This document shows, one piece after another, positions 14,149-55,348 of a stretch of DNA of 64,000 nucleotides (within the stretch, counting starts at the first letter, position 1; each line of letters begins with the position of its first letter). Source of the DNA: Xylanibacter ruminicola. GTDB taxonomy: Bacteria; Bacteroidota; Bacteroidia; Bacteroidales; Bacteroidaceae. The stretch lies in assembly GCF_900107775.1 (NCBI RefSeq), contig NZ_FNRF01000001.1, positions 124,001 to 188,000 of the forward strand. Direction: 5' to 3'. The translations under genes and the position numbers were made by a program. The notes beneath the pieces are model-generated. The model had not been told where the DNA came from. It saw only the letters and a list, made by a program, of their open reading frames with translations, and did no database searches.

Positions 14149-14151
14149 TAT

Positions 14152-15170: not shown

Positions 15171-15174
15171 AGTT

Positions 15175-18144: not shown

Positions 18145-18152
18145 AATCTTTC

Positions 18153-18377
18153 TTATTTTTTTATTGTTACCTTATGTGTTGTACCTTCTACATGCTCAAT
18201 CGATAGTACATTGTACCCTTGCTCCTTAGCATTTCGGGGCACATTGTCGAGAGGTTCACCCTCGGCAAGTAATACCTCAAGTATATCGCCCGTTTGAAGC
18301 TTCGAGAGCTCAATCTTTGTCTTTACGAAGGTCATTGGGCAGTGCTCCTTCGTAATGTCTAATACCTTTGTTGCCAT
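18153..18377 (-). CDS. TusA family sulfur carrier/sulfurtransferase
   Basis: A 74-residue TusA/SirA/YedF-like protein that would carry persulfide sulfur between enzymes. The start at 18377 gives MATKVLDITKEHCPMTFVK, placing the active Cys13 where expected; a longer frame from 18410 would overlap the DsrE-like gene. The usual Cys-Pro-x-Pro motif is Cys-Pro-Met-Thr, a deviation that still keeps the persulfide-forming cysteine. It precedes the encapsulin gene by 8 bases. Confidence 0.85.
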   Translation of the reverse strand: MATKVLDITKEHCPMTFVKTKIELSKLQTGDILEVLLAEGEPLDNVPRNAKEQGYNVLSIEHVEGTTHKVTIKK

Positions 18378-18387
18378 ATCCTTACCT

Positions 18388-18867
18388 TTAAATAAATAAT
18401 GTTTGACCACCTTCAGAAAGCTTCAGGAACGAAGCTACACCAAGCACATCCTTCACCTCGGGTATAAAGTCATCTTTCTTTAAACCAAGTACATGCATGG
18501 CCATCTCGCAGGCATAGAGGTTAATGCCAAGCACCTTAGCAGCCTCAACCAGTTCCTCGAGCGTTGCCACATTGTTCTTACGCATCAGCGAGCGGAAAAT
18601 CTTAGGACCAGCACCCAGGAAGTTAAACCTACTGGTAGGCGTAGCCTTTAATCCGCCCATCATAAAACCAAAAATCTTGGTAAGCCAGTTGCCACCGGTA
18701 AACGAGCGTCCCTGCTTCTGCTTAATGGCATCAAGGCCCCAGAAGGTAAAGAATATGTTTACTTCGTAACCCACGGCTGCGGCACCTGTACCTAATGTGA
18801 ACACCGCTGTAAGTTTATCGAAATCGCCACTAAAGGCGATAATGCTAAGTTTCTTTGTCTCTGCCAT
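18388..18867 (-). CDS. DsrE/DsrF/DrsH-like sulfur-relay protein
   Basis: A 159-residue protein of the DsrE-like superfamily (DrsE_2 type), whose members bind or relay sulfur through a conserved cysteine. LSIIAFSGDFDKLTAVFTLGTGAAAVGYEVNIFFTFWG opens the flavodoxin-like fold, and the conserved cysteine is in LYACEMAMHVLGL. DsrE-like and TusA-like genes are commonly paired, as here (10-base gap). Confidence 0.88.
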   Translation of the reverse strand: MAETKKLSIIAFSGDFDKLTAVFTLGTGAAAVGYEVNIFFTFWGLDAIKQKQGRSFTGGNWLTKIFGFMMGGLKATPTSRFNFLGAGPKIFRSLMRKNNVATLEELVEAAKVLGINLYACEMAMHVLGLKKDDFIPEVKDVLGVASFLKLSEGGQTLFI

Positions 18868-18872
18868 ATTTC

Positions 18873-20072: not shown

Positions 20073-20205
20073 GCAAAGGTACGAAGATTAGAAATATCCT
20101 CCAAATTTGGTCTGATTTTAGGAAAATTCAGCTAAAAACGGAGGATATTTACAGAATTTATTCTAAATAGCATTCAAATACTGTCCCAAAAGAGAATATT
20201 ATTCT
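20073..20205 (-). promoter_or_regulatory. Promoter and putative operator pair of the encapsulin/sulfur operon
   Basis: On the minus strand the -7 box TACCTTTGC (20073-20081) lies 25 bases before the MetY-like start. Upstream are two dyads, AGAAT-TT-ATTCT (20153-20164) and AGAAT-ATT-ATTCT (20193-20205), whose ATTCT halves are 41 bases apart. GGAGGATATTT also occurs as an inverted pair (20090-20100 and 20140-20150). The same arrangement, base for base in spacing, precedes the SusC gene at 42 kb. Confidence 0.6.
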
Positions 20206-21469
20206 AAATGCGCAGTTCTATACCAAATTTACGCTTATATTGTTCTTTTAAAAATGTATCTATCCAGTGGTAGAATTCGGCAGTTTCTTTGGCTGTTTGA
20301 CCATTTTTCCTCAAAGCATTCAAAGCCTGTTCACTCCTTGCAAAAATCTCGGTTTCTATCGGCTCTATCTTTTGGAGAATACCTGTTCCTGCATGGTTTA
20401 TGAGTTTAGCCAGATTAATATAATCGGTGCCATTACCGCGCTCTATCGGGAATAATTGTTTCTTTAATTCGAAGCCTGCATCAACAAGGGATGCGCGACC
20501 TTCGTTGTTTCTGGAAACAACCTTTGGCAAAATACCATCAGAAGTAATCCATAGCGGAATAGCCACAGTTGTGAGTGTACTGCCTGCAATGGTCCAGGCT
20601 ACAGTCAACCTGGGGTTCTCTCCTTTCTTCACACCTTGAATCAGTTGAGCCGAAGCCGTTTGATAACGTGGGATAAAATCGCGGAAAGGAAAGTAAACTG
20701 GTTGCGTATCATCCTGTGGTGCAAAGTCCCCTAGATTCAGACGTGTAAGACCATGAGTGAGTGTACGTGTTACCTTACGGATAACAGGCTCAAATCCCAG
20801 GTTGCCAGCAAAACCGGCCCTTGCAGCATAGTCGCTAATGGCAAGATAGCGTTCTACACCTTGATCCATCGAACGCTCACCAGTCATACCATGGTTAGTA
20901 CGAACGATATAGCCATAAGGTGCCTGTAAGGGATCGTTGGCATCAAACTTAGTATAACCATTATTGCCCGTTTCATAATAGGCCACGCCACCCTGCGCAT
21001 CCATAACAGCAAAGTTTGAATTAGAAGGTATCGGTCCCCGCGCCTTGATGCTGTCGAGAAGCAACTCGAAATCTTTCAATGTAGCACAAGTTTCCAAGGC
21101 ACGACGCATCAACGTACCATCGTTCTCGTCGCCTTGCGGACGTGGCTTGCCTGGAACAGGTTTCCCGTTCAGATTATATGCTGCCGTATTAGCAATGGCA
21201 AATCCTGCCTCATTATGGCCCGACCATATACTCGTGGCCAGCGAATCGTTTTGAGAAGCTATTCCGATAAAACGATACTTTACCCCTTTGATACTTACTA
21301 CCAGGTTATCCTGGTTCATTGTATCACGATTTTTAAAAATATACGGTCTGCCATCTGGTGTTACCTTACCCGACACGATAATACTGGTACATGCCTTTAC
21401 CGATGTTCTGGTAATGAACATAGCTCCTGTCATTAAGCAGATAAGGGCTAATCTTTTCTTTTTCATCAT
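20204..21469 (-). CDS. Exported Ntn-hydrolase, C45 / linear amide hydrolase family
   Basis: A 421-residue exported hydrolase of the acyltransferase/choloylglycine-hydrolase superfamily. A signal peptide ends SVKA directly before Cys27 (CTSIIVSG), so signal cleavage would expose the nucleophilic N-terminal cysteine. FKNRDT, WSGHNEAGFAIANTAAYN and SNSNFAVMDAQGGVAYYETG follow the C45 (isopenicillin-N acyltransferase-like) pattern. It would cleave an amide bond in a periplasmic substrate; which one is unknown. It is the last gene of the exported-protein operon, 22 bases after the copper-receptor-like gene. The second Met may be the true start. Confidence 0.8.
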   Translation of the reverse strand: MMKKKRLALICLMTGAMFITRTSVKACTSIIVSGKVTPDGRPYIFKNRDTMNQDNLVVSIKGVKYRFIGIASQNDSLATSIWSGHNEAGFAIANTAAYNLNGKPVPGKPRPQGDENDGTLMRRALETCATLKDFELLLDSIKARGPIPSNSNFAVMDAQGGVAYYETGNNGYTKFDANDPLQAPYGYIVRTNHGMTGERSMDQGVERYLAISDYAARAGFAGNLGFEPVIRKVTRTLTHGLTRLNLGDFAPQDDTQPVYFPFRDFIPRYQTASAQLIQGVKKGENPRLTVAWTIAGSTLTTVAIPLWITSDGILPKVVSRNNEGRASLVDAGFELKKQLFPIERGNGTDYINLAKLINHAGTGILQKIEPIETEIFARSEQALNALRKNGQTAKETAEFYHWIDTFLKEQYKRKFGIELRI

Positions 21470-21491
21470 ATATACTCTTTTTTCTTTTATT

Positions 21492-23486
21492 TCATATTTT
21501 CAGCGAGAGATTGGCATAGATGTTACGACCCTTTTGGGGAATATGATTCCAATCTGAATAGGTAGAATAGTAACGATCAAACAGGTTATCAACACCCACA
21601 TGGATATTAGCTACAACCGTATGGATGTTAAACTGATAACCGGCACTGATATGCCATACAGCATAGCCAGGTGTAAGACTCTCGCCATACTTATTGCTGT
21701 AGTTGCTCTGTTTGCCAACCAGTTCGCCACCCAATTCTCCTTCCCAGTTCTGATGGAACAGTTTCAATGCCGTAAGATAGGTAAAGGGAGCAATCAAAGG
21801 CAGATGAGCCCCAGTGCTCTCCTTGCCATAACTGTAACTCACCTTATTGTCCCAACGCAACCAGGAAAGAGGGGTGACACTGAATGTAAACGCAGTATTC
21901 ACAATCTGCGCATGTTTTAGGTTCTGGTAAACCTTCACACCCGGAGCTCCGATAGTCATGGCCGACAATCGGTTATCGGGTGTACCGATAATGTAGTTAT
22001 GGAAAAGAAATGCATTCACCTCTAGGCGAGTATCTATCACATCATTCTGCCACGAAGTCGATGTATTCAACTCAACCGCACTTTCGTTCTTAAGGTGGGG
22101 ATTACCAATGTAATCATAACGGTCGAAGGCATTATTCAGGAAGTATCCAAACGACTCGGTAACCGATGGTGCACGATTACCGTATCCTGTTCCAGCAGCC
22201 AATCGCCAACCATTTTTCTGCCAGGCATAGCTTACAGACACTCGTCCCATAAAAGTACGCTTGCTACGTTCCACACCTGGGAAAAATATTTCCAAGGCGT
22301 GGTAGCCTTCATCGCTGTTAATACGTTGCTGCTGCCAAGAGCCTTTTGCCGACAGATGGATACTATGCGTATCAGACAAACGGATATTATCAGACAACGA
22401 CAAACCGCTGTTGAAAGTACCCACATCAGGCCACGTAAGCATGTACATGGGTTTGGCCCCCTCAACATACATGGTCATATCAGCAAAAAGGGTATTGTAA
22501 TAGCAATCAAAATTAAGCTGATACTGATGTTTACCCCTTGAGCCCTCGAGCAGACTATAAAGTCCGGCCGTACTGCTTTTACCAGGCATATCCATGTGAA
22601 TAATCACGTCGGGGCGTGTGCTATCATCCATATTATGGGTGATATGATTATAGTACACCTTGGTTTCCCATCGGTAGAAAAGCCCCGCAAGCTGCTCCCT
22701 GCGATAAGAAAGCGACGTGATAAGTCCTGTAGCATCGCTAACATCCATATTCAGGGCCGGATAGCCAACATCGGTGGCACGGTCGAAAATGACCGTACCC
22801 TCTACGATGTGGTTTGGGGCTGGACGGAACCCCAGGTTCAGAAACGAATTGACTTTATGGAACTTGGAAAAAGGAACATCCTGATGTCCACCAGCCCTGT
22901 AATTATCTGCATCACGATAAAACGCGCCGAAGTTGGCATAGAACGTCTGCGACGAGAACGCAGCATCGGCACCATACACCTGCAGATGGCCGTTGGCTTC
23001 ATACCCAGTAGTAAGGTTAAACTCCTGAGGAGCAGCATCAAACCCCGACTTACGGAGTTTCAGATCAATACTTCCGCCAATATTACCTGTTGCCTGTGGA
23101 TTGCCATCAAGGCCCGAATCCAGTCTTACGCGCTGCAGGTTACCACTTTCTACATACGACGTTACAGGATCCATTTTATCGGTACAAGCATAGAATATCT
23201 TCATACCATCGATAGTTGTACTCAATCGCTCGGTAGACATATTGTTTACCACTGGTTCCCAGGCATATGCGCCTCGTTTCACCATGGCAACATTGTTCAA
23301 CTGCAACAGATGCTCCTCTATCGATGCTGTACGCCCCTTGCCAGCCACCTTGCGCTTGGAACCGACAGTCGAGGTGATAGTCACCTCGTTAATCGATGCT
23401 TCTTTCTCGATACTGTCGGTTGGCAAAGCGGTCAATACATTACTATAATATAACGCTCCAATAAATATTGCTATACCCGCTGTCAT
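21492..23486 (-). CDS. TonB-dependent receptor, OprC/NosA-like (putative copper importer)
   Basis: A 664-residue outer-membrane receptor with plug (about 30-145) and beta-barrel ending in Leu-Lys-Ile. In the plug, FYACTDKMDPVTSY contains Cys101-x3-Met105, and the barrel has His284-x-Met286 (THNMDD). Together these match the CxxxM plus HxM copper site described for OprC, and MDPVTSY resembles the NosA/OprC plug. A second HMDM follows within about 20 residues. There is no N-terminal carboxypeptidase-like domain. Its start overlaps the end of the preceding lipoprotein gene by 44 bases. Copper specificity is inference from these motifs and from the YtkA-like neighbour. Confidence 0.82.
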   Translation of the reverse strand: MTAGIAIFIGALYYSNVLTALPTDSIEKEASINEVTITSTVGSKRKVAGKGRTASIEEHLLQLNNVAMVKRGAYAWEPVVNNMSTERLSTTIDGMKIFYACTDKMDPVTSYVESGNLQRVRLDSGLDGNPQATGNIGGSIDLKLRKSGFDAAPQEFNLTTGYEANGHLQVYGADAAFSSQTFYANFGAFYRDADNYRAGGHQDVPFSKFHKVNSFLNLGFRPAPNHIVEGTVIFDRATDVGYPALNMDVSDATGLITSLSYRREQLAGLFYRWETKVYYNHITHNMDDSTRPDVIIHMDMPGKSSTAGLYSLLEGSRGKHQYQLNFDCYYNTLFADMTMYVEGAKPMYMLTWPDVGTFNSGLSLSDNIRLSDTHSIHLSAKGSWQQQRINSDEGYHALEIFFPGVERSKRTFMGRVSVSYAWQKNGWRLAAGTGYGNRAPSVTESFGYFLNNAFDRYDYIGNPHLKNESAVELNTSTSWQNDVIDTRLEVNAFLFHNYIIGTPDNRLSAMTIGAPGVKVYQNLKHAQIVNTAFTFSVTPLSWLRWDNKVSYSYGKESTGAHLPLIAPFTYLTALKLFHQNWEGELGGELVGKQSNYSNKYGESLTPGYAVWHISAGYQFNIHTVVANIHVGVDNLFDRYYSTYSDWNHIPQKGRNIYANLSLKI

Positions 23487-24411
23487 TATTCTCTCCTCCT
23501 GCTACGATGTTACCTTCTTTGTCCTTTACAACCAGATGAATATCCCACAGGCCTGTCATGGTAAGGTTAAGCTTACCTTCGTATATGCCTGATGGTTGTT
23601 TGGTAAGAGCCACATTATCGGGCGAAGAATGATTGCCCATATCGGGCATAGTGGGTATAATTTCGATAGTAAACTCCTGATCAGACAATGGCCAAGGTTT
23701 GGCTTTCTCAGCATTCTGCTGCGACACGTATGCCTGAATAGTGTTTATACCAGTCTGGAAATCATTAGGATTTACCAGCGAGAGGTAATAATTTACATCC
23801 TGATATTTGAATGACTTAATCCACTCCTGGCCTGTAGCATTGGCCGAAACCTCGATAACACTACCGGCATGGGCAACTGTTTTATTCTGGGTAGTTGCCT
23901 TGTATCCCAGTTCCCAATAGCCCATATTGCTACTACTCATTACGAAAGATATCCACGCGTGCTGTACGGCAGGGAATGTTTCATCGTAAAGGCTGCTCTC
24001 TGTAGCCGTTGGTGTTGAGTGCTTCATACCTTTCTCGGTCATGGTCATCACGGGACTTATCTCTGTTACAGAAAAATCACGAACAAAACCTTGATTAGAG
24101 ATTTTTGTCAACGCAAAAAACACATCATTATAGCCTGCATGCAGTTTGCCACCTCGCGAGTAAACGCTCAGGGCATATTTCTCATCGATTGTGTCGCGTA
24201 GCGATTCAATCTCTTTCAGATAACCGTTGTGCAGGAAAGTATATGCCAGAAATGTCTCTTCGGCATTGCAGCATTCGTCGTCTTCGGTTGGTATATTGAT
24301 AGGTACTACTGGATCATCACTACCTCCGCAGGCAGTGAGTGCGAAACCTGAAAACAGCAAAAAAACTATCGCGCTAATTCTTGTAAAAACTCTCTTTTCC
24401 ATAATCATCAT
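23443..24411 (-). CDS. Lipoprotein with YtkA/FixH-like domains, Met/His-rich
   Basis: A 322-residue lipoprotein (lipobox ALTAC). Two similar immunoglobulin-like segments can be seen: one with SPVMTMTEKGMKHSTPT (about 125-140), the other with TMPDMGNHSSPDN and GLWDIHLVVKDKEG near the C-terminus, which is the YtkA/FixH pattern. The Met/His clusters resemble copper-handling proteins. An N-terminal DDECCNAEE adds a Cys-Cys pair. It is placed 7 bases after the C_GCAxxG_C_C gene and overlaps the OprC-like receptor gene, so a copper-transfer partner of that receptor is a reasonable inference. Confidence 0.7.
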   Translation of the reverse strand: MMIMEKRVFTRISAIVFLLFSGFALTACGGSDDPVVPINIPTEDDECCNAEETFLAYTFLHNGYLKEIESLRDTIDEKYALSVYSRGGKLHAGYNDVFFALTKISNQGFVRDFSVTEISPVMTMTEKGMKHSTPTATESSLYDETFPAVQHAWISFVMSSSNMGYWELGYKATTQNKTVAHAGSVIEVSANATGQEWIKSFKYQDVNYYLSLVNPNDFQTGINTIQAYVSQQNAEKAKPWPLSDQEFTIEIIPTMPDMGNHSSPDNVALTKQPSGIYEGKLNLTMTGLWDIHLVVKDKEGNIVAGGENNDSGYSNIYWSVIL

Positions 24412-24418
24412 CTCCTTT

Positions 24419-25012
24419 TTATTTCTTTTCTTCTGTTAACTGCTGCCATGGGGCGATGGTACTTGTGTGGATATCACCCTCACGGAAAAGAACTTCTATC
24501 ACTTTCTGTATCGCACAGAGATTACATCCGTCGCAGTGACTAAAATGATAACGGGCGTAGATATCACCACACGTAATGGATCCCTGTTGCTTCTTAAACT
24601 CATCATATACTTCAGCTGCCAACCGCAAATGTTTCTCCTTATCGCCACTGGCATAAAAACCTAAGGCTGCAATGGCACCGGTAAGTGCGCCACAAGTGCC
24701 TTCGCCAAACTTATGACCGATACCACCAGAGAACGCCTCCGACATGCTTCGAAGTTGTTGCTCGCTTAGTGGACTGCCCAGTGTAGCAGCGATAGAGGTT
24801 AGTGAGAGTGCCGAGCACCCATAGTGCTGTCCGTACCGCTGCTCCAGTTGCAGCTTCACTTCTGCTTTCAGCGAGTCGAGCGTCTGATGTCGGCTTACAG
24901 CAGGAAAAGCGGCCGGACGAGCTATGCGTAGTGAGTCTGCCTGTGCATTGGTAGCACAAACGGTTACAGGCCAAGTAGCCAAAGCGAGTAAATATGCAGG
25001 CTCATACTTCAT
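24419..25012 (-). CDS. Exported C_GCAxxG_C_C family protein
   Basis: A 197-residue protein with the cysteine pattern of the C_GCAxxG_C_C (redox-active cysteine) family: HYGCSALS, then GGIGHKFGEGTCGALTGAIAALG, GSITCGDIY and HCDGCNLC. Family function is not established; a redox or metal role is usual speculation. Unlike the typical cytosolic relatives it starts with a signal-peptide-like stretch ending TNAQA, so it is probably exported. It lies 2 bases after a tandem OsmC gene. Confidence 0.75.
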   Translation of the reverse strand: MKYEPAYLLALATWPVTVCATNAQADSLRIARPAAFPAVSRHQTLDSLKAEVKLQLEQRYGQHYGCSALSLTSIAATLGSPLSEQQLRSMSEAFSGGIGHKFGEGTCGALTGAIAALGFYASGDKEKHLRLAAEVYDEFKKQQGSITCGDIYARYHFSHCDGCNLCAIQKVIEVLFREGDIHTSTIAPWQQLTEEKK

Positions 25013-25014: not shown

Positions 25015-26250
25015 TTATTGTCTTTTAAAACTACCACGTACGATGCGATGCTCGAATGTCTGAGTATCCTTAAAGAGGTTGTACATGGGGCAAATCTTCT
25101 CAACAGCCTCGATCCACTCTTTCACGGCCTGAGCACTTTCGGGTGTCTTCACATGCAAAGTGTAGCGCACGTTCTGTGGAGCAATCGACACCTTCTCAAA
25201 GCCCTTGCGACCTGCTCGTGGATCCCATTCTGCCTCGACGGTCAGCGAGATTGAATCCACGTCGAGTGCGCGTTCTGCTGCCTGTCCCAATGAGATGTGA
25301 GTGATACAGGTGCCCAGGATGCCAAGCACACCCTCGATTGAGGTAAAACCGAGATTGGTACCACCCAGATAAGCAGGATTATCGTGCAGAATGAGATACT
25401 TATCATTTACGGTTAGCTGACGCACACCATTGGGGAAAACCTTTACCCATGGGCCCTGCTTTGGAGCAAGTGCTTTACGCAAGGCATCTGCGTCAGCCTT
25501 TGGATTCTTGGCTTTTGCTGCTTCTGCTTTCGCCTTGCTTGCCTGCAGCGCCTGACGCTTACCCCAGATATACTCGCGAAGTCCAGCCAAGGTGGCGCCT
25601 TCAACCTTCTTCTCGCGTGGTGACGACTTCTGATCGATAATCAGTTGAGGTACTACGGCAGCCTTCACCAGAGTGGCTACAGCCGAGTTCTGCTCTGCCA
25701 ATACTGCCAACTTTTCCAACTCAGCATCCGAGGCAGGTGAATCAATATAGATGGTGTAGAGGAAGTTGCGTGGATACCACACACGATTGGTCTTCACCTT
25801 GTCGGGCTGACCGTGGATTTCGATAGTCAGCGAGTCGATATCGATACCCAGCAGCGCAGCCTGATTCAGATAGCTGTCGGCAAGGTCGGAAGCAAATACG
25901 GCCTGAGCTGTAGTTGGGGTGTCCACACCCGAATCCTGTCCACCATGTGCATAACCACAGTCGCCAATATAATGAAACTCTCTGATTCGGAGTTCACGTA
26001 CACCCGAGCGGTTCTTGGCGGTAACATTGGCTGTAAGTGTTACTGGCTGCAAATCGCTAGCGGGTATAGCATTCCAAGCCTCAAGAGCCACCTTACGCTC
26101 CTTCAGGTGGTTACGCAACGAAGGGGCATTCTGTTCCAACTTGGCTTTCTGCTGAGCCGACTTAAAGATGTTGAGAGGCCCCTGTGCGAGTGCACTACTA
26201 ACCTGCAAAGCAAGGGCTGCTGTAATGATAACAATCTGAGTCTTTTTCAT
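25015..26250 (-). CDS. Exported tandem OsmC-like protein 2
   Basis: A 411-residue protein with a signal peptide (ending SSALAQ) and two OsmC/Ohr-type domains. The C-terminal domain (about 260-411) has both redox cysteines, Cys315 in LGTCITHIS and Cys387 in KICPMYN, as in peroxide-reducing OsmC. The N-terminal domain (about 60-205) has the same fold signature but no cysteine at either place. A charged Ala/Lys-rich linker (KAKAEAAKAKNPKAD) joins them. OsmC proteins are normally cytosolic single-domain dimers, so this appears to be a covalent, exported half-active dimer. Paralogue of the gene upstream, 21 bases away. Confidence 0.8.
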   Translation of the reverse strand: MKKTQIVIITAALALQVSSALAQGPLNIFKSAQQKAKLEQNAPSLRNHLKERKVALEAWNAIPASDLQPVTLTANVTAKNRSGVRELRIREFHYIGDCGYAHGGQDSGVDTPTTAQAVFASDLADSYLNQAALLGIDIDSLTIEIHGQPDKVKTNRVWYPRNFLYTIYIDSPASDAELEKLAVLAEQNSAVATLVKAAVVPQLIIDQKSSPREKKVEGATLAGLREYIWGKRQALQASKAKAEAAKAKNPKADADALRKALAPKQGPWVKVFPNGVRQLTVNDKYLILHDNPAYLGGTNLGFTSIEGVLGILGTCITHISLGQAAERALDVDSISLTVEAEWDPRAGRKGFEKVSIAPQNVRYTLHVKTPESAQAVKEWIEAVEKICPMYNLFKDTQTFEHRIVRGSFKRQ

Positions 26251-26271
26251 AATTTCTTCTATTTTTAATGA

Positions 26272-27540
26272 TTACTTATTCTTTGCTATTACTCTTTTTA
26301 TACCTCCTTTGATTTCCTGCGCATTGGTTACCAGATTGTAGATGGGGCATCCACGCTCGGTATCGGCAACCAGCTGACGGATCTCAGCCTCACTGCGTGG
26401 ACTGCTTATCACCACACGCATCTGTATGTCGGTAGGATAAAGTGGCGTTTGCTCATATCCCTTGCGACCACTACGTGGGTCGAACTGGGCAGTGAGTGCT
26501 ACGTTAAGGGTGTCAAGTGGAATCTTGTTGCGTGCTGCGGTTCCCTCTGCCACATGGGTAAAGCACGAACCAAGCAATCCGATATGACTCTCAACCGCAG
26601 TAGGTCCAAGGTCGTTTCCGCCGAAGATCTGTGGATGATCCTGCAGAACTCTGTGATGGCGCACTTGAAGTACGGTTACACCTGATGAGGGATTGATGAA
26701 AGCACTTGGACCATCTGGATTAAGATAGCTCTCACTCTGAGCAGGCGTGAACTCATTCTTACGAGAGTAAGGATAGTCGTAGGCATAGCCACCAAACTTT
26801 GCCTTATCGGGACGCTGACCGCTTTCACGAAGCTGCTTGTTAGCCTCGCCTTTACGCGTTTCCCACTCAATGAACTCACGCAAACCTGGTTGATAGGTAG
26901 GTGGAATCACCAAATCCTCGGCACTCTTATGCAGTTCAACTGTTGTGTTTACCTTATGCGCACGGATAGAGAACTGATAAAGTGGTGAGTTTTTCTCGGC
27001 CAGGACACGTAACTCCTCAAGTTGCTGGTCAGAAGCAGGCGAATCAATAAAGATGGTATAATCCAGTCCCCAGTTCTGTAGCGAATGCCCAGTCTGCTTG
27101 ATATTGATGGCAAGCGAGTCGATGGCAACCCCCTTGATAGCAGCCTGTGTGACGTAGCTGTCGATGATATCACCGGCAATAGCTGCAATCACATGGTCGG
27201 GAGTACCAATTCCCAAGTCGAAGCCACCATTGTTGTAACCACTGTCATTCAGATACTGATGCTCACGTATAATCACATGACGTGTGCCAGCACGCTGCTC
27301 TGCTGTGGCAAAAGCTCTGATAGTGATGGGGTGCAATGCTGCAGTAGGGATAGCCCTGAACTGATTGACTGCTGCCTTGCGACGCTTAAGCAGGTCGCGA
27401 AATGATGGTGCACTCTTCCAGGCTTTCTGAAAATAGCCTTTATCGGTGATGGCCTTATTCAAACGCTGATCGTTTTGTTGAGCAAGTGCCCCCGTGAGGG
27501 TAGCACTTGCAATTACGGTTGACAAAATTAATCTTCTCAT
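26272..27540 (-). CDS. Exported tandem OsmC-like protein 1
   Basis: A 422-residue paralogue of the next gene with the same plan: signal peptide (ending TGALAQ), a cysteine-free OsmC-like domain (GTPDHVIAAIAGDIIDS in place of the Cys segment, NSPLYQF in place of the second Cys), a linker, and a complete OsmC domain with Cys326 (LGSCFTHV) and Cys398 (ERGCPIYN). Expected activity is reduction of a hydroperoxide or polysulfide-like substrate in the periplasm; the reductant is unknown. It follows the SusD gene by 20 bases. Confidence 0.8.
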   Translation of the reverse strand: MRRLILSTVIASATLTGALAQQNDQRLNKAITDKGYFQKAWKSAPSFRDLLKRRKAAVNQFRAIPTAALHPITIRAFATAEQRAGTRHVIIREHQYLNDSGYNNGGFDLGIGTPDHVIAAIAGDIIDSYVTQAAIKGVAIDSLAINIKQTGHSLQNWGLDYTIFIDSPASDQQLEELRVLAEKNSPLYQFSIRAHKVNTTVELHKSAEDLVIPPTYQPGLREFIEWETRKGEANKQLRESGQRPDKAKFGGYAYDYPYSRKNEFTPAQSESYLNPDGPSAFINPSSGVTVLQVRHHRVLQDHPQIFGGNDLGPTAVESHIGLLGSCFTHVAEGTAARNKIPLDTLNVALTAQFDPRSGRKGYEQTPLYPTDIQMRVVISSPRSEAEIRQLVADTERGCPIYNLVTNAQEIKGGIKRVIAKNK

Positions 27541-27560: not shown

Positions 27561-29192
27561 TTATTCTCTGCCTACATAGGGGTTGGTGGTGATGTCGGAA
27601 CCATCGTAGCCATAGTTTTGCCAGAGATTGGGGTTAACTACTCGCTGTGCTTGTGGGATGGGGAAACGATAATGCTTGAAATCAATCGTCTGCTTGTTAT
27701 ACTCTGGGAAGTTCTTGGCCAAAGCACTATTCTTAATGGTCTTCACCAGAATCTTCCAGCGCTTCAGGTCGAGCAGATGTTTCTGCTCCAGGACGAACTC
27801 CCATGAGCGTTCCTGTATGATGGCGCTCTTGAAGCCTTCGTAGTCAAGACCTGACTTCAGGTCGTGTGACTGTGCTGCTGCGCTGAAGATATCCTCGCGG
27901 AATGCACGGCGACGCACCTTGTTGAAGGCATCATAGGCCTGCTGATTAGGCTGTCCGTCACGCTCGTTGATAGCCTCGGCCAGTACCAGATACACCTCAG
28001 CCAGACGGATCACCTGACGGTTCATAGCACGGTCGGCAGCACTTGTCTCAACCCTGTCATGGTCGATGTACTTGTTGTAGCGTGAGAAGCCCGACTCGCG
28101 GATGCCATCACCGTCGGCATCAAAATAGAAGTGGAAATAGTTCTGTGTAGAAGGACGCCAAAGTGAGTCGGCAAACGAAACATCCTTGCGCTGATCACCC
28201 GGCAGATATGAATTCTCGACGGTGTTGTCAGGACCAGGTGCGATATGTGGCAGCGACACGCTGAAGCTGGTTGAGAACGAGCAGTGGCACAGGTGGTTAT
28301 TGCCCGAAGCATCGCCATCGCGTGTGCTTGATCCCAGATAGAACTGGATGGCAAAAATACTCTCCTTACCATTGCGGTTCTGGTTGTTCCAGTTGTCATA
28401 GAAATCCTCTTCCAGACTATATTCATTCGAGTCGATAACCTGCTGGGCATACTGAGCCGACTTGCCGAAATACTCCTTGCGCTGCACATCGGTCAGTTCG
28501 TCATCCACCTGAGCCCAAGTCAGGTAAACCTTTGCCAAGGCAGCCAATGCAGCACCACGCGAGGCACGACCGATATCACCCTGACTCTGCTTACTGCGCT
28601 CAGGCAGTCGGGCTGCAGCATCCTCAAGGTCGGCCACTATCTGCTGATAGACCTCTGTCTCCGAGTTTCTTACTGCATTTGTACCGCCATTGCTGCTGGT
28701 GATGACAGGCACTGGCCCCCACAGCTGCACAGCATAGTTCAGATAGTAAGCACGCAGAAACTTGGCTTCGCCTATCACCTGCGATGCAATCTCGGGTGAC
28801 ACGCCTGCAGGATTAGTCTGCAACTTCTCGATGGTATCGTTAGCACGTGCCAGCGAGGCATATACAGCACGCCACAGGCTCACCACATAGGAGTTGGTTC
28901 CATCCCATGAGAGCAGTCCTAACATGCCACCTCCACCATTGGGATTCTCACCGCTCACGGTGGTCTCGGTAGTGAGGTCGATAAGATACATGTAAGTAGT
29001 GGCCAGTTCAATATCCGACGAATATACGGCATTAACAAGTGCCTTGGCATCTGCATCGCTCTGGGGCAGATTACTCTCGGCCAGCTCGCTCAGGTTACCC
29101 TGATCCAACGACTCGCACGATGCAAGTGTCAAGCCGAACACCACGCCTGCCAACAGAGATTGCGCTGTATGATATATCTGATTCTTTTTCAT
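27561..29192 (-). CDS. SusD/RagB-like outer-membrane lipoprotein 1
   Basis: A 543-residue surface lipoprotein (lipobox LTLASC) of the SusD family, which caps a SusC channel and binds its nutrient. AKFLRAYYLNYAVQLWGPVPVIT and LAEVYLVLAEAINERDGQPN are SusD helix landmarks, and the C-terminus has the usual FPIPQAQRVVNPNLWQN. It lies 20 bases after its SusC partner. The substrate is not predictable; the operon has no glycosidase, unlike polysaccharide loci. Confidence 0.92.
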   Translation of the reverse strand: MKKNQIYHTAQSLLAGVVFGLTLASCESLDQGNLSELAESNLPQSDADAKALVNAVYSSDIELATTYMYLIDLTTETTVSGENPNGGGGMLGLLSWDGTNSYVVSLWRAVYASLARANDTIEKLQTNPAGVSPEIASQVIGEAKFLRAYYLNYAVQLWGPVPVITSSNGGTNAVRNSETEVYQQIVADLEDAAARLPERSKQSQGDIGRASRGAALAALAKVYLTWAQVDDELTDVQRKEYFGKSAQYAQQVIDSNEYSLEEDFYDNWNNQNRNGKESIFAIQFYLGSSTRDGDASGNNHLCHCSFSTSFSVSLPHIAPGPDNTVENSYLPGDQRKDVSFADSLWRPSTQNYFHFYFDADGDGIRESGFSRYNKYIDHDRVETSAADRAMNRQVIRLAEVYLVLAEAINERDGQPNQQAYDAFNKVRRRAFREDIFSAAAQSHDLKSGLDYEGFKSAIIQERSWEFVLEQKHLLDLKRWKILVKTIKNSALAKNFPEYNKQTIDFKHYRFPIPQAQRVVNPNLWQNYGYDGSDITTNPYVGRE

Positions 29193-29212: not shown

Positions 29213-32200
29213 TTAATACGACAGTTTAACACCAAATGTAAATGTACGAGATGCAGGATAGGTTCCACGATCTACGTAGCCGCTGTACTCAGGATCATAA
29301 CCACTGTAATTGGTTATTGTAAGCAGGTTCTGGGCCGAAGCGTAGAGGTAAACACCCAGTTTCTGATTGTTACCCACTTTGGGCTGGAAATTGTAGCCAA
29401 TCTGAATATTCTTCAGGCGCAGATAACTGGCATCTTCAATAAAGCGGCTATCCAGATAAGCGCTATAGTTATTCTGAGCTACGGCACGTGGAATGGTTGT
29501 ACTGGGATTCTCGGCTGTCCAACGGTTCAGCAGCTTGGTGGAAGCATTATAGCTGGCATTGGGCGACTCAAGTGCCTGTTCCATCTGGTTATAGAGCTTA
29601 TTGCCATATGAACCCTGGAAGTTAAGACTCAAGTTCCAACTCTTATAACGCAGCTGAGTAGCAAAACCATAGGTAAAATCGGGCTGTGCTGAACCAAGTA
29701 CTACACGGTCGTTCTCCTGATCTACCACACCATCACCATTCTGATCGACATACTTCACGTCGCCATATTCTACGACCGGTTTGTTGGATGGTGAAGGAAC
29801 CGACTTCAAATCCTCGGATGTCTGCACGATGCCATCAAACTGCCAGCCATAGTAAGTACCGAGTGCTTCGCCTGGACGGATAATGGTCTGGTTGCCGTTG
29901 ATAATCTCACTCTGTCCGGTACCAATGCTTGTCACCTCATTGTGGTTGTGGGCAATATTGGCACTCACCTGCCATGTCAGATCCTTAGCCTGCCAAAGGG
30001 TGGCATTAACAGCAAACTCAACACCATCATTGGTGACGTTGCCTACGTTTGTAAGCTGACGACTGAAACCTGTAGTCTGCTCAACAGGAATATCCAGCAG
30101 CAGGTCGGAAGTTTTCTTGTGATACACATCGAAAACAAAACCCAGTTTACCCTTCAGGATATTAAAGTCGAAACCCAAATCGTACGAGGTGGTAGTTTCC
30201 CACTTCAGGTCGTCGTTGCCCAAAGCCGAACGATAATAGGCTATATTCTTAATACCGCCAAGGAAATAATGGGTGGCAGCATAAGTTGAGAGGAAGGTAT
30301 AGTCGCCAATCTCCTGGTTACCCACAGTACCAATGCTGGCACGCAGTTTCAAGTCTTCAATCCACTTGATGTTCTTCAGGAACTTCTCTTCGTTCACATT
30401 CCAAGCAAATCCAAGTGAGGGGAACCAACCCCATTTCTTATTCTTGGCAAAGCGACTCGAACCATCGGCACGCAAGGTGGCTGTAAGATGGTAGCGATCC
30501 AACAGCGAGTAGTTGATACGACCGATACCAGAGTAGAGTACCGATGTAACAAAATCGGTCTCGGTAGCGATGAGCTGCGAACCTGACTGAAGACTCTTGT
30601 AACTCAGGTTATCATTGGCATAATCGGCAGTACTGCCAAGCAGTCGCTCGCTTTTTTCCTGCTGATAGGTATAACCACCCAGCACCTCGAACTCGTGGAT
30701 ATTACCAATTTTCTTGTTCCATGTCAGGGTGACCTCAACCTGGTCGCTCTCCCAGCGCTTTGAACCCACGGCACCATAGCCATCAGAGTTGAAACCAATC
30801 TGTGAGGTGGCAGGACCGAACACATTCTGACGGGTATTCAGGATGTTAACCGAACCCTGTGTACGCAATTTCAGCCCTTTGATGATTTCCCACTGTGCAA
30901 AAGCGCTCACCAGCGTATTATCAACACGTGTCTGTGCATCCACCTCGCTCAGGTCGGCAATGGCATTAGGAGTCAGGCCATTGCGCACAAAGTCGCCTGC
31001 CTCAAAAGGATTAGCATAGTTGTAGGTACCATCAGTATTATAAATAGGTACTGCAGGCGATGTACGCAAGGCCAACTCCAGCAGGCCGCTCACACCGTTC
31101 GACTGTCCGCGGAACGACTGCGAACCGGTCTGAGTGCTCTTTGAGAAGCTCGACTTCAGACCTACGGTTACGTTCTTCAGAATGTCACGTTCATAGTTCA
31201 AGCGTGCACCTAAGCGGGTAAATCCTGTGCCGCGAATCACACCATCCTGATTGGTATAGTTGCCCGAAATGTGGAAGCGCTCATTATCCGAACCACCACT
31301 TACCGATACCTGATGCTGCTGGGTGGTAGCAGTACGGAACAAAGCATCCTGCCAATCGGTGCCCTCGCCCCAAGTCTTAACCAACTCAGGTGTAACACCC
31401 GAAGCCTTCTTCTGGGCATCGGTTGCCAACTCCAGATATAACTCGCCCCACTGCTCAGCGTTGAGCACATCCAAACGCTTGCGGACCGACGATACGCCAA
31501 TAGAATAACCGTAATCCACCTTAACCTTACCATGTTTACCACTCTTGGTGGTTACGATTATTACACCATTGGCACCACGCGAACCATAGATGGCCGAGGC
31601 CGATACATCCTTCAGCACCTCGATCGACTCGATGTCGGATGGGTTGATTGAGGCCAAAGGATTAAAGTTTGTACCAGCCACGCTATTGCCGGCATTAGTG
31701 GCCGAACTGCTATTGTAGAGCAGCACACCGTCAATCACATAAAGGGGCTCGTTACCGGCATTGATAGAGTTACCACCACGGATGCGGATGTTAACCGATG
31801 CACCTGGCTGACCAGATGATGCAGTAGCATCAAGACCGGCAACGGCACCACCCAGGATGTTATCGAACGAGGTCGAGGTATTCAGCAGTTCATCATTCTT
31901 TACGGTAGTTACAGCACCAGTAAGCTGCTTACGCTTCTGTACACCATAACCTACTACTACCACCTCGTCCAGACGGTTCGAGTTATCAATCAGGGCTATC
32001 TCTACTGGCTCATCGAAATCGTAAACATCTACATCGAGAGCACGATAGCCTACGTATTCTACTTTCAGGGTCAGTGGGGCTTCTACCTTTGTCTCAAGCT
32101 TAAAGTTACCATCCACATCGGTCACTACACCTCTACCCTTTTCTGATTTTACAATCACCGAAGCTCCTATCAACGGCTCACCAGTACGGACATCGGTGAT

Positions 32201-32281
32201 GTGTCCGGTAATCAGGTTCTGCGCAAAGGCCACTAAGGGCCCTATTGCAACAAGCGTTGCAACTAACAATCTTTTTCCCAT
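29213..32281 (-). CDS. SusC/RagA-like TonB-dependent transporter 1
   Basis: A 1022-residue outer-membrane transporter: signal peptide, carboxypeptidase-regulatory-like domain (about 22-98), plug with EVLKDVSASAIYGSRGANGVIIVTTKSGK, and a 22-strand barrel ending FGVKLSY. Its first ~95 residues are nearly identical to those of SusC 2 at 38.8-42.0 kb, while the rest is quite different. It is preceded by the PstS-like gene (17-base gap) and followed by SusD. The lack of carbohydrate-active enzymes in the operon argues for a non-glycan substrate. Confidence 0.94.
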   Translation of the reverse strand: MGKRLLVATLVAIGPLVAFAQNLITGHITDVRTGEPLIGASVIVKSEKGRGVVTDVDGNFKLETKVEAPLTLKVEYVGYRALDVDVYDFDEPVEIALIDNSNRLDEVVVVGYGVQKRKQLTGAVTTVKNDELLNTSTSFDNILGGAVAGLDATASSGQPGASVNIRIRGGNSINAGNEPLYVIDGVLLYNSSSATNAGNSVAGTNFNPLASINPSDIESIEVLKDVSASAIYGSRGANGVIIVTTKSGKHGKVKVDYGYSIGVSSVRKRLDVLNAEQWGELYLELATDAQKKASGVTPELVKTWGEGTDWQDALFRTATTQQHQVSVSGGSDNERFHISGNYTNQDGVIRGTGFTRLGARLNYERDILKNVTVGLKSSFSKSTQTGSQSFRGQSNGVSGLLELALRTSPAVPIYNTDGTYNYANPFEAGDFVRNGLTPNAIADLSEVDAQTRVDNTLVSAFAQWEIIKGLKLRTQGSVNILNTRQNVFGPATSQIGFNSDGYGAVGSKRWESDQVEVTLTWNKKIGNIHEFEVLGGYTYQQEKSERLLGSTADYANDNLSYKSLQSGSQLIATETDFVTSVLYSGIGRINYSLLDRYHLTATLRADGSSRFAKNKKWGWFPSLGFAWNVNEEKFLKNIKWIEDLKLRASIGTVGNQEIGDYTFLSTYAATHYFLGGIKNIAYYRSALGNDDLKWETTTSYDLGFDFNILKGKLGFVFDVYHKKTSDLLLDIPVEQTTGFSRQLTNVGNVTNDGVEFAVNATLWQAKDLTWQVSANIAHNHNEVTSIGTGQSEIINGNQTIIRPGEALGTYYGWQFDGIVQTSEDLKSVPSPSNKPVVEYGDVKYVDQNGDGVVDQENDRVVLGSAQPDFTYGFATQLRYKSWNLSLNFQGSYGNKLYNQMEQALESPNASYNASTKLLNRWTAENPSTTIPRAVAQNNYSAYLDSRFIEDASYLRLKNIQIGYNFQPKVGNNQKLGVYLYASAQNLLTITNYSGYDPEYSGYVDRGTYPASRTFTFGVKLSY

Positions 32282-32298: not shown

Positions 32299-33177
32299 TT
32301 ATTTAAGATTCAACAATCCATATTCGTGGTTGTACTTGGTGCCCTGTGCCAGCACCCATTCCAAGAACTTGTTCACCTCGTCGTCGGTAGTGTTCACGCT
32401 GATGCCGACTTTCTCGATGGCCACTTCCGACTCCTTACTATTCTCGAGTGCTGTAAGCAGTTCGTCGAGTGTGCCGTTATCGCTGAAACTGTTGGCCAAG
32501 TCCTTCTTCACGTCAAGACCTACCAGCGAGAGATTTTCTTTAAGGTGGCGGCTCTTCAGATCAAAGATATTAGGAAGTGCGTTGAACGACACGCCCAGAG
32601 GATCCTTTGCCAAAGCGGTGTTCAGAAACAGGTCGTCGCCTGATATACGCTTGCCACGGAAATTGCTGCTCTCCTCGCCAAAATTGTGAGCGAACGACGA
32701 AGCTACCGATGTGGCATTGCTGCCGCTATAAACAGTGATGGTTTCGAAAGCCTTGTTCTTCTTTACTTCCTCGTCAAAATCCTCATTCAGGAAATAAAGC
32801 TGCTTTAGTTTCTTGTTGTTCAAATGTTTACCTTCGAGCAGTCGGGCTGCCTCAGAGCTACGTGCGGTGATAGGCAGCACGGCTGTCTCTCCGAAATAAA
32901 CAATCTGGCTAAAGTTTTTATCATCAAGTACTACATTCAGGTCGGAATTACCTTGTCCCTTTGCAATCTGGAACTCTACGCCTGGTTGTGTTTTTGCGTA
33001 TTCTTTAATCCACTTTTCAACCAATGGGCGTGCAAAGCGTGGCGCCTTAATGGTGCGTACGGTTGTATTGTTGGTGCCCTTAACTTCGTTGACATCGTTC
33101 ACACCATTACCTTCAGCCCAAATATTGCTGATGCTGATACTGAATAATACTGCTATTGTTAATGCTATCTTTTTCAT
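32299..33177 (-). CDS. Exported PstS-like (type 2 periplasmic binding fold) protein
   Basis: A 292-residue protein with a signal peptide (ending SNIWA). The mature part resembles the phosphate-binding PstS-like fold: FARPLVEKWIKEYAKTQPGVEFQIAKGQGNSDLNVVL, then VLPITARSSEAARLL and KLKQLYFL. There is no ABC transporter nearby, so it may deliver an oxyanion or small ligand to the SusC/SusD pair. It is the first gene of a nine-gene operon with intergenic gaps of at most 22 bases. Its start codon lies inside the tail of the Met/Cys-rich leader ORF. Confidence 0.72.
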   Translation of the reverse strand: MKKIALTIAVLFSISISNIWAEGNGVNDVNEVKGTNNTTVRTIKAPRFARPLVEKWIKEYAKTQPGVEFQIAKGQGNSDLNVVLDDKNFSQIVYFGETAVLPITARSSEAARLLEGKHLNNKKLKQLYFLNEDFDEEVKKNKAFETITVYSGSNATSVASSFAHNFGEESSNFRGKRISGDDLFLNTALAKDPLGVSFNALPNIFDLKSRHLKENLSLVGLDVKKDLANSFSDNGTLDELLTALENSKESEVAIEKVGISVNTTDDEVNKFLEWVLAQGTKYNHEYGLLNLK

Positions 33178-33298
33178 ATTGCTTCTTTTTAATTTTGTTT
33201 ATACCTATTATATATATACCCTCCTTCATCATCATTGTCATCATCATCTGGCGACAACAACAAACATCTTGCATACGCATTCGCATTGTTCTTTTCAT
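33113..33298 (-). CDS. Met/Cys-rich leader peptide (uORF) of the exported thiol/copper operon
   Basis: A 61-codon ORF in the leader of the nine-gene operon, starting 42 bases after the -7 box. An AAAGG/AAGGGG stretch stands shortly before its ATG. The first 24 codons hold ten Met and three Cys, in the blocks MRMRM, CCC and MMMTMMM; the remaining 37 codons have none of either. It runs past the start codon of the PstS-like gene by 65 bases in another frame (stop TGA at 33113). A stall at the Cys/Met block would occur before the downstream ribosome site. It may sense Met/Cys charging, or copper as in CruR-type uORFs; both are inference. Confidence 0.6.
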   Translation of the reverse strand: MKRTMRMRMQDVCCCRQMMMTMMMKEGIYIIGINKIKKKQYEKDSINNSSIIQYQHQQYLG

Positions 33299-33339: not shown

Positions 33340-33348
33340 GCAAAGGTA
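33340..33348 (-). promoter_or_regulatory. -7 promoter element of the exported thiol/copper operon
   Basis: Reads TACCTTTGC on the minus strand, 163 bases before the PstS-like start and 42 before the leader ORF. Further upstream (33381-33400) is an ATACC...GGTAT dyad that could bind a regulator of this promoter or of the divergent TonB gene. Confidence 0.6.
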
Positions 33349-33460
33349 CGGCGTTTTCTCCATCCCCACAATCCCTACCCTATGGCATTCCATATACCAT
33401 GATATAGGTATTTCGATAGTTAATAAAGATATAATGCGCATTTGATTCATTTTTTATACA

Positions 33461-33476: not shown

Positions 33477-35459
33477 ATGAAGAATAAACGACACTATACT
33501 GGACTGATAGCCACATTTGTGGCAACTTGTGGAGTTTATGGCCAAAGCGCCATAAACACAGACACCCTGCAGATGCTCGAAGGCGAGCATCTGCAAGAGG
33601 TGCACGTGATGGCCCATGGTCATCAGCATGCCAAGACAAGAGGATTAGCCAATACAGACTTTATTGGCAGTGGCGATTTGCTACGCGCTGCCTGCTGTAA
33701 CTTAGGCGAGAGTTTTACAACCAATCCATCGGTAGATGTGAACTATGCCGATGCGGCAACCGGTGCGCAGCAGATTAAGCTGTTGGGACTGAGCGGCACC
33801 TATGTGCAGATGCTAACGGAGAACATACCAAATTATCGCGGTGCTGCAGCCCCCTACTCGTTAGGTTATATCCCAGGTCCCTGGATGCAGAGTATCCAGG
33901 TATCAAAAGGAGCCTCATCGGTAAAGAACGGCTACGAATCGATAACCGGTCAGATTAACGTAGAGTTCAAGAAACCGCAGGCCACACCTTTTGCCGACGC
34001 GAACCTATATTATAATACCAAGGGAAAAGTGGAAGCCAACCTTGGTGCAAACCTCAAACTCTCAAATCGCTGGAGCACAGCCCTGTTAGGGCACTACGAG
34101 CTACTCGACAAGGCACACGACGAAAATAACGATGGCTTTGTGGATATGCCGAAAGTACGCCAAGGCTCGCTGATGAGCCGTTGGGCCTACATGAGCGGCG
34201 GCTATATCTTCCAGGCAGCCATCAAGGGGCTGAAAGAACATCGTGAGGGAGGACAGATCGGTCATCACACAAACACTTCTCACCCCTATACTATCGACAT
34301 CACCAACGAACGCTACGAGGCTTTCACCAAGAATGCCTTTATCATCGACCCAGAACACGGTTCGAACATCGCCCTGATTCTTTCGGGCTCGCTGCATCAT
34401 CAGGATGCACTCTATGGTCATAAACAATACAATACCGACCAGCGCAATGGCTATGCCTCGCTGATGTTTGAAACGGATTTTGATGAGCACAATAGTATTT
34501 CTACAGGTATAAGTCTGAACCACGATCGTTTTGATATCGACGAAACCACACCTGGCATCTACGCCCAATACACTTATAAGATAGGCGAGCAGTTTACGTT
34601 GATGGGAGGACTGCGTTGGGACCATAGCAACATCTATGGCGGTTTCATTACACCACGCATGCACCTGAAATACTCACCAAACGATATTCTGACGCTGCGT
34701 GGTTCTATCGGAAAAGGCTACCGCACCAATCATGTGATGGCCGAGTACAACTACCTGCTGGCCAGCAGTCGACAGATCATCATCGATAACGATCTCGACC
34801 AGGAAGAGGCATGGAACTATGGTTTGAGTGCAGCACTCAGCATCCCTATTGGCGAACGCAAGCTGGAGCTTAATGCTGAGTATTACTATACCACATTCCA
34901 GCACCAGTTGCTAGTTGATATGGATAGTAATCCTCATGCCATACACTTTACCAACCTTGTGGGCGACAGTTACTCGCACACCTGGCAGGTAGAGGCTACA
35001 TATCCGCTATTCGAAGGCTTTACCATGACGGCTACATATCGTCACAACAACGTAAAATCCACCTATGGCGGGGTACTGCGCGAAAAGCCTCTCACCAACC
35101 GCTATAAGGGACTTATCACAGCCCAGTACAAACCTGGCTTAGGCAAGTGGCAGTTTGATGCTACGCTACAACTGAATGGTGGCGGACGTATGCCCGACGC
35201 TTACACTACCACCAACGGACAGTCTGCTTGGGAGAGCAGCTATAAAGGCTACGAGCAGCTGAATGCACAGATAACCCGATTCTTCCGCCATTGGAGCATC
35301 TATGCTGGAGGCGAGAACATCACAGGTCGCAGACAGCAGAATCCTATCATTGCCGCCAGCGATCCCTGGGGACAGGACTTTGATGCCACCATGGTATGGG
35401 GCCCCATGCATGGTGCCATATATTATATAGGTATAAGATTAAATTGGATTAAAATATAA
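33477..35459 (+). CDS. TonB-dependent receptor, heavy-metal type
   Basis: A 660-residue outer-membrane receptor. The short mature N-terminus has a His-rich patch (VMAHGHQHAK), then the plug (CCNLGESFTTNPSVDVNYADAATGAQQIKLLGLSGTYVQ and VSKGASSVKNGYESITGQINVEF) and a barrel ending NWIKI. Receptors with this CCNLGESF plug often precede a heavy-metal-associated-domain protein, and one follows here after 6 bases. Uptake of a metal or metal chelate, perhaps copper, is inferred. It is transcribed divergently from the Met/Cys-leader operon. Confidence 0.88.
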   Translation: MKNKRHYTGLIATFVATCGVYGQSAINTDTLQMLEGEHLQEVHVMAHGHQHAKTRGLANTDFIGSGDLLRAACCNLGESFTTNPSVDVNYADAATGAQQIKLLGLSGTYVQMLTENIPNYRGAAAPYSLGYIPGPWMQSIQVSKGASSVKNGYESITGQINVEFKKPQATPFADANLYYNTKGKVEANLGANLKLSNRWSTALLGHYELLDKAHDENNDGFVDMPKVRQGSLMSRWAYMSGGYIFQAAIKGLKEHREGGQIGHHTNTSHPYTIDITNERYEAFTKNAFIIDPEHGSNIALILSGSLHHQDALYGHKQYNTDQRNGYASLMFETDFDEHNSISTGISLNHDRFDIDETTPGIYAQYTYKIGEQFTLMGGLRWDHSNIYGGFITPRMHLKYSPNDILTLRGSIGKGYRTNHVMAEYNYLLASSRQIIIDNDLDQEEAWNYGLSAALSIPIGERKLELNAEYYYTTFQHQLLVDMDSNPHAIHFTNLVGDSYSHTWQVEATYPLFEGFTMTATYRHNNVKSTYGGVLREKPLTNRYKGLITAQYKPGLGKWQFDATLQLNGGGRMPDAYTTTNGQSAWESSYKGYEQLNAQITRFFRHWSIYAGGENITGRRQQNPIIAASDPWGQDFDATMVWGPMHGAIYYIGIRLNWIKI

Positions 35460-35465
35460 AGCATT

Positions 35466-35795
35466 ATGAGAACAAAAGTATTATTCGTCGCATTAGCATT
35501 CGCAAGCGCTTGCTTTGCAAAGGACATCAAAACTGTGGTACTCACCACCAATCCACAGATGCACTGCAACAACTGTGAGAAGAAGATTAAGGAAAATATC
35601 CGCTTTGAAAAGGGCGTTAAAAGCATCAAGACCGATCTTGATACAAAAACTGTCACCATCGAGTACGATGCCGACAAGACGACCGTAGCCGACATCATCA
35701 AAGGCTTCGAGAAGATCAAATACGAGGCCAAAGAGGTGAAAGAAAATCCCAAGAAAGTGGATGCAACTACATCCGCCACAAAAGTATCAAAATAA
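35466..35795 (+). CDS. Periplasmic heavy-metal-associated (HMA) domain protein
   Basis: A 109-residue protein with a signal peptide (ending ACFA) and one HMA domain. The metal site is MHCNNC (Cys34, Cys37), followed by the ferredoxin-like fold (GVKSIKTDLDTKTVTIEYDADKTTVADIIKGFEKI). The tail is Lys/Thr/Ser-rich. It probably binds Cu(I) or a similar soft metal and works with the receptor encoded 6 bases upstream. Confidence 0.88.
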   Translation: MRTKVLFVALAFASACFAKDIKTVVLTTNPQMHCNNCEKKIKENIRFEKGVKSIKTDLDTKTVTIEYDADKTTVADIIKGFEKIKYEAKEVKENPKKVDATTSATKVSK

Positions 35796-55282: not shown

Positions 55283-55348
55283 AACCTTTACGGGCGAAGG
55301 TCGAGGCGTAGCCTCAACTTTCACATAGACTCATTCTTGAATCACGTT

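Follow-up and report, generated by a model that had tools for sequence, protein, structure and literature searches.

A conserved Met/Cys-codon leader ORF before a sulfur operon of Xylanibacter ruminicola as a candidate sensor of sulfur amino acid supply

What is a short reading frame packed with Met and Cys codons doing at the head of an operon, where it runs out of frame into the first structural gene? We address this question for an ORF on the minus strand of a 64,000-nt stretch of the X. ruminicola genome (the window). The original prediction weighed two readings: ribosomes stalling for want of charged Met- or Cys-tRNA might free the downstream start, giving a sulfur-starvation switch, or the nascent peptide might bind Cu(I), as proposed by analogy with the copper-responsive CruR of Bordetella.

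The leader, its promoter and its operon

The promoter-proximal region holds the following features.

33386-33411, minus strand: candidate operator ATACCTATATCATGGTATATGGAATG, of the form ATACC-N8-GGTAT-N4-AATG
33366-33375, minus strand: conserved GGGATTGTGG in the -33 region
33341-33348, minus strand: -7 promoter element TACCTTTG
33113-33298, minus strand: leader ORF of 61 codons, MKRTMRMRMQDVCCCRQMMMTMMMKEGIYIIGINKIKKKQYEKDSINNSSIIQYQHQQYLG
33227-33298, minus strand: Met/Cys block, codons 1-24, with 10 Met and 3 Cys; its 3'-most Met/Cys codon starts at -52 from the gene ATG
33229-33263, minus strand: predicted in-frame RNA hairpin; the 5' arm is Cys codons 13-15 (33262-33254) with their neighbours, the 3' arm the next Met/Thr codons
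33178-33226, minus strand: Met/Cys-free part of the leader tail, which includes the A-rich initiation region of the structural gene
33113-33177, minus strand: overlap of leader and first gene, 65 nt, frame +2
32299-33177, minus strand: first structural gene, for a 292-aa exported protein with no Pfam, NCBIfam or PDB match

As originally described, the ORF has its ATG at 33298 and a stop codon ending at 33113, has all of its Met and Cys within codons 1-24, the remaining 37 being free of both, crosses the first-gene ATG (33177) in a different frame, and is preceded by a -7 box at 33348-33341; with the transcription start inferred from that box, the leader ATG lies ~37 nt past it. The chance of at least 13 Met/Cys codons among 24 is ~5e-12 from base composition and 2e-13 at assumed average frequencies of 3.5%, while the frequencies observed in the ORFs of the window are 2.1% for Met and 0.9% for Cys. 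The block was chosen after being seen; because the block is conserved, this post hoc choice is no longer a worry. No CCC occurs in the long ORFs of the window. TGT accounts for 77% of the Cys codons in leaders (68% in the distant group) versus 35% in the ORFs of the window, where TGC accounts for 65%, and this preference may reflect slow decoding, pairing or both. The purine-rich site said to precede the leader ATG did not hold up: it is not conserved, and Bacteroidia ribosomes do not recognise Shine-Dalgarno (SD) sequences (PMC9976891). The site is thus no meaningful SD sequence, and SD unmasking is therefore not the expected output of the leader.

Downstream of the first gene, the operon and the genes that follow it comprise:

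29213-32281, minus strand: SusC-like TonB-dependent receptor
27561-29192, minus strand: SusD-like lipoprotein
25015-27540, minus strand: two exported OsmC-domain proteins (26272-27540 and 25015-26250)
20204-25012, minus strand: C_GCAxxG_C_C protein, YtkA-like protein, TonB-dependent receptor and C45/AAT-like hydrolase
13750-20048, minus strand: Cys/Met metabolism PLP enzyme, DsrE2, family 2B encapsulin shell, SufS-type encapsulin cargo Cys desulfurase, ThiF/MoeB and Prok-JAB

The product of the first gene is well conserved, with distant homologues in Dyadobacter (32%); sequence searches found no relatives of it in the PDB, and the predicted structure model was poor. A further TACCTTTG box at 20081 suggests a separate transcript for the sulfur genes that follow. 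The operon had been labelled a thiol/copper operon; a sulfur operon fits better, given the two OsmC proteins, the C_GCAxxG protein and the downstream sulfur genes, and the part of the label that survives is a possible copper link left by the YtkA-like protein and a neighbouring HMA-domain gene. The receptor described as 'OprC-like' reaches 116.7 bits with the copper-receptor model, far below that model's cut-off of 472. Within the downstream genes, 15175-18144 encodes a family 2B (cNMP-domain) encapsulin shell and then a SufS-like Cys desulfurase with a match to the encapsulin cargo model, adjoining DsrE2 and the ThiF/JAB pair; family 2 encapsulins with Cys desulfurase have been linked to the use of sulfur, and sulfur starvation induces one of them (PMC8346489). 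On the plus strand, 33477-35795 holds a divergent TonB-dependent receptor gene and, after it, a gene whose product is a small protein with an HMA domain. The two may form a pair for metal uptake, and they have their intergenic region in common with the sulfur operon.

The candidate operator is a conserved inverted repeat upstream of the -33/-7 promoter and is also kept in loci that lack the leader. Across the 3.77 Mb of the genome, ATACC-N8-GGTAT-N4-AATG has just two sites without mismatch, this one and another before cysK (C10:194088-194116; L223). A longer pattern ending in AATGNCA gave 35 exact matches in 120 genus genomes versus 0 for the reversed control. In the 29 readable cases, the gene after the operator, assigned by similarity or by eye, was cysK-like (10), dsrE2 (8), receptor-like (5), the first gene of this operon (3), a sulfhydrylase gene (2) or ThiF (1). 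These patterns point to a candidate operator that cysK, sulfhydrylase, dsrE2 and this operon have in common in many Prevotella, apparently an undescribed sulfur regulon. Because the operator is common to cysK and other sulfur genes, the operon would belong to this regulon.

Conservation, loss and coding selection

A search of genome contigs with the 292-aa protein returned 64 loci, 62 of them Prevotella/Xylanibacter-type, and the leader ORF is present in 48 of these 62. Two further leaders were found in another genus of the family, directly before a homologue of the gene with 61-62% identity, and 20 more precede distant homologues of the first gene; thus, the question whether orthologous operons have such an ORF, which the original prediction had put forward as a check, was answered largely in its favour. 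In the 71 loci examined that carry it, the leader is kept before the same operon. A search for the gene product in 398 genus genomes gave homologues in 81, many just 37-47% identical. Where the first structural protein is only ~40% identical, the leader retains the same plan, that is, a Met-rich block, a run of two to six Cys, a second Met block and a Met/Cys-free tail. Upstream of distant homologues, the leaders have diverged (MKTMMNQMRMCCCCCSSMQMSNNDKEERS..., MKRMYNVCMRMCCQATS..., MRTMNCCMRSHSMAACMVRMCCCPSSEMN... and MKQMMNMVCSTACRMCACMGMKR...); the Met-Cys-Met order is retained and the original tail lost (for example, MKTMMNQMRMCCCCCSSMQM... and MKQMMNMVCSTACRMCACMGM...), and the tail KGSVYIIGIN, which follows the block in the window's group, is absent from the diverged leaders. 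Identity at Met/Cys columns is 0.78 versus 0.67 at other columns in one group and 0.77 versus 0.60 in the other, bearing out the expectation that the Met/Cys blocks persist while flanking codons drift. Four leaders (L035, L054, L055 and L057) carry an insert such as LGKRHIVSSG within the Cys run, apparently a hairpin of its own, with the frame kept.

A profile built from 22 leaders (A1) gave convincing matches in 399 family genomes only in the genome of the window and in two genomes of another genus, in each case before this operon; among 393 order genomes, the best other match (E = 9e-5) was partial, had internal stops and did not lie before this gene. Two other searches were set aside: single-sequence leader searches at loose E-values returned mostly noise, except for G047, G159 and G122, and a promoter-pattern search for other poly-Cys leaders returned mostly out-of-frame Leu codons of signal peptides. 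In a relative, a short ORF with three Cys codons (MNSKKCCCTAAIYSF) lies just after a promoter box and before a gene for a 193-aa membrane-like protein (L236, ~1547, minus strand); it may represent another type of Cys leader or have arisen by chance.

The leader is missing from 14 of the 62 loci, among them two of the closest relatives, in which the protein is 96% and 92% identical. On the tree of the first gene, presence and absence of the leader require ~7 changes, at least five of which are forced by well-supported branches. Because clean loss has occurred repeatedly in these 14 loci, we conclude that the leader is not essential and can be lost.

Where present, the leader keeps one frame with respect to the gene ATG in 68 of 71 cases, across 15 different spacings between 109 and 192 nt. 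Taken modulo 3, the distance between Cys run and gene is also the same in 68 of 71. The dN/dS ratio in the leader frame is 0.36 for 46 non-redundant leaders and 0.50 for 16 distant leaders, compared with 0.99/0.62 and 1.11/0.79 in the other frames. The substitutions are those of coding selection, in the leader frame only. Such purifying selection on the peptide would also be expected of a small functional, metallothionein-like protein acting in trans, a reading to which we give very little credence: the ORF is found only upstream of, and overlapping, this operon, most residues beyond the Met/Cys block have been replaced from one group to the other, and the C-terminus is dictated by the overlapped gene.

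The same reading-frame data bear on a different use of the Met codons. On average, the blocks of the two groups contain 7.6 and 7.4 ATGs in frame and 0.3 and 0.8 out of frame. With seven to eight in-frame ATGs per block and nearly none out of frame, the leader might be an AUG decoy that captures initiating ribosomes into the overlapping frame, a constitutive brake in which the Cys codons act via the hairpin only. We regard this as quite improbable, since it leaves unexplained the Cys runs with both TGT and TGC, the Met codons after the Cys run and the restriction to the sulfur operon.

Most leaders (67 of 71) cross the gene start and stop 50-80 nt inside the gene. Within the last 60 nt before the gene, the leader frame contains a stop in 83% of leaderless relatives versus 2% of loci with a leader; beyond +45, it is open in 87% of leaderless relatives as well. 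Since this stretch is open in most leaderless genes as well, the 3' part of the overlap carries little weight on its own. The leaders of L042, L049, L091 and L170 stop upstream of the gene start and, therefore, occlusion by overlap would not be universal.

The variation among leaders also helps to judge whether the nascent Met/Cys-rich peptide binds Cu(I) and thereby alters translation of the leader, as in CruR. The composition of the peptide, the YtkA-like gene in the operon and the divergent TonB receptor gene with its HMA-domain gene would agree with copper sensing. Against it stand the variable number of Cys (runs of 2 to 6), the interruptions by Ser, Trp or Arg, and the operator common to cysK and other sulfur genes. 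Moreover, given the length of the exit tunnel, the Met/Cys block would become exposed only shortly before the ribosome reaches the leader stop. The features that mark CruR are missing as well (PMC9426467), and we consider a copper sensor very improbable. Thus, of the two original readings, Cu(I) sensing is not supported, while sulfur starvation is well supported, as far as sequence can tell, by gene context, conservation and geometry.

Spacing, hairpin and the candidate output

The 3'-most Met/Cys codon is placed 52 nt or more before the gene ATG in 61 of 62 non-redundant leaders. For one group, its position peaks sharply at -55 and -52, for the other at -64. A ribosome stalled at the last Met/Cys codon would reach to roughly -37, and the initiation region would thus stay free. 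At -13, -12, -6 and -3 of the gene start, adenines are present in 82, 95, 87 and 82%, respectively; adenines at such positions promote initiation in Bacteroidetes (PMC6847099).

Our preferred reading, which we hold to be rather probable on these grounds, is that the leader is a cis-acting upstream ORF (uORF) through which the availability of charged Cys-tRNA and Met-tRNA governs initiation at the first, overlapping gene of a sulfur-acquisition operon. With ample Cys and Met, ribosomes would traverse the leader, pass across the A-rich initiation region and the gene start and end 50-80 nt inside the gene, and translation through the start would occlude it. When Cys or Met is short, ribosomes would stall in the Met/Cys block; a ribosome stalled at least 52 nt before the ATG would shield the leader and leave the gene start, with its A at -3, -6, -12 and -13, free, so that the operon would be expressed. 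The hairpin whose 5' arm consists of Cys codons would probably slow ribosomes there and sharpen the response, and transcription would be set separately, by the operator common with cysK. The analysis supports the conservation of frame, codons, spacing and operator, the sulfur context and, likely, the hairpin; translation of the leader, stalling, occlusion and the sign of the response are what we infer. That the leader senses both sulfur amino acids by pure geometry, with stalling at least 52 nt upstream admitting an initiating ribosome and elongation wiping over the start, has in our estimate about an even chance.

We assessed the hairpin by single-sequence and synonymous-recoding tests in place of RNAalifold on a MAFFT alignment, which showed no two-sided covariation and in which the hairpin arms were misregistered. 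In the window's group, a 48-nt window starting from the Cys run has a mean z of -2.0 versus +0.1 to +0.4 in neighbouring windows. Compared with synonymous recodings, the observed sequences rank in the most stable 10% for 19 of 29 clusters in the window's group (group A) and for 3 of 10 in the distant group. The residues encoded by the 3' arm vary by locus (MMAMT, MMMTA, MMVTA, PTT, QAT, SSMQ and PSS), and the pair is restored where TGTTGC...GCAATGACA is changed to TGTAGC...GCTATGACA (L036) or to TGTAGC...GCTATGGCG (L068). These comparisons suggest that a hairpin with the Cys codons as one arm is conserved, which we regard as likely rather than proven.

A hairpin more stable than its synonymous alternatives, with the Cys codons in its 5' arm, raises the possibility that the same stalling on Cys or Met codons acts through a switch in RNA structure or through Rho-dependent termination, the ribosome melting the hairpin and so freeing the 3' arm or altering Rho access. 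The four leaders that end before the gene would fit such a structural output. Between leader and gene, however, no intrinsic terminator was found on the minus strand, the gene start is mostly unpaired in the predictions, and several whole leaders, including that of the window (z = 1.4 to 1.7), fold no better than shuffles; in the Rho version, stalling that simply exposes RNA to Rho would lower expression on starvation, which is the wrong sign. We therefore consider an output of this kind unlikely, more so than control of initiation by the position of the ribosome.

Several structural candidates were set aside. A global leader structure masking the gene start was discarded in view of the weak folds and unpaired start, and intrinsic attenuation in view of the missing terminator. 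In the folds of L037 and L052, the Cys run pairs with gene codons 7-11 (ACAATAGCAGTA); this pairing was set aside as well, as the leaderless L031 keeps the same codons. As for a riboswitch or other Rfam element, no covariance model matched the leader. Elsewhere in the window, a cobalamin riboswitch (RF00174, 78 bits) lies at 55120-55304 on the minus strand.

Comparison with known leaders

Classical attenuators such as the trp and his leaders contain a run of codons for the amino acid that is sensed and a hairpin over those codons. The leader described here resembles them in both respects and differs in that no terminator/antiterminator pair was found, the gene start is overlapped and two amino acids are apparently sensed. 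In terms of amino acid attenuation more broadly, we observe a short upstream ORF with a codon run and selection for the frame and the sensed codons; the operon carries a sulfur gene set, as the targets of such leaders carry genes for the amino acid concerned, and has its operator in common with cysK, sulfhydrylase and dsrE2. Of the usual outputs, neither a minus-strand terminator nor a masked start is predicted; the hairpin over the codon run is present.

CruR of Bordetella is a copper-responsive uORF that encodes a DUF2946 protein with CXXC and RAPP motifs and acts through Rho termination (PMC9426467). Like CruR, the present leader is an upstream ORF with sulfur-containing residues before transport genes; unlike CruR, the leader of the window contains neither CXXC nor RAPP, RAPP occurs in none of the leaders, and the window leader matched neither DUF2946 nor any other Pfam family up to E = 1.

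Within the Bacteroidota, the literature searched, with limited coverage of subscription journals, yielded no description of a comparable leader, and the leader-peptide candidates reported for Bacteroides are only unvalidated short ORFs in long 5' UTRs (PMC7366714). If the leader is indeed a dual sensor by geometry, this phylum would, as far as the searched literature shows, have its first described translational starvation switch. With its comparative support, the leader would provide a concrete, testable example of nutrient sensing by ribosomes in bacteria that are dominant in rumen and gut and do without SD sequences. It also draws attention to a sulfur-acquisition system not yet characterised and to a sulfur operator, and the natural leaderless variants provide ready controls.

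Two systems are closer. The uORFC-8-2 motif before cysS in Rhodobacterales has a uORF with tandem Cys codons in a stem, precedes a gene for Cys use and ends in an intrinsic terminator, giving transcription attenuation (PMC8632094); here, Cys codons likewise lie in a stem, whereas there is no terminator, and the leader runs into the gene and contains Met codons too. The mycobacterial polycysteine short ORFs are leaderless and are reported to mediate Cys-responsive attenuation of downstream genes in a manner dependent on ribosome speed (Canestrari et al. 2020, Mol Microbiol 114:93; via PMC9031893 and PMC9094748). They resemble our leader as short upstream ORFs with contiguous Cys codons, and their mRNA begins at the start codon of the short ORF; in contrast, the -7 box here ends at 33341 and the leader ATG is at 33298, so that this leader is not leaderless, Met blocks flank the Cys run, the host belongs to the Bacteroidota and does not use SD sequences, the Cys codons form an in-frame hairpin, and the operon is a different one. 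The mycobacterial polycysteine leaders, together with the Rhodobacterales Cys uORF before cysS, are the closest known systems in mode of action.
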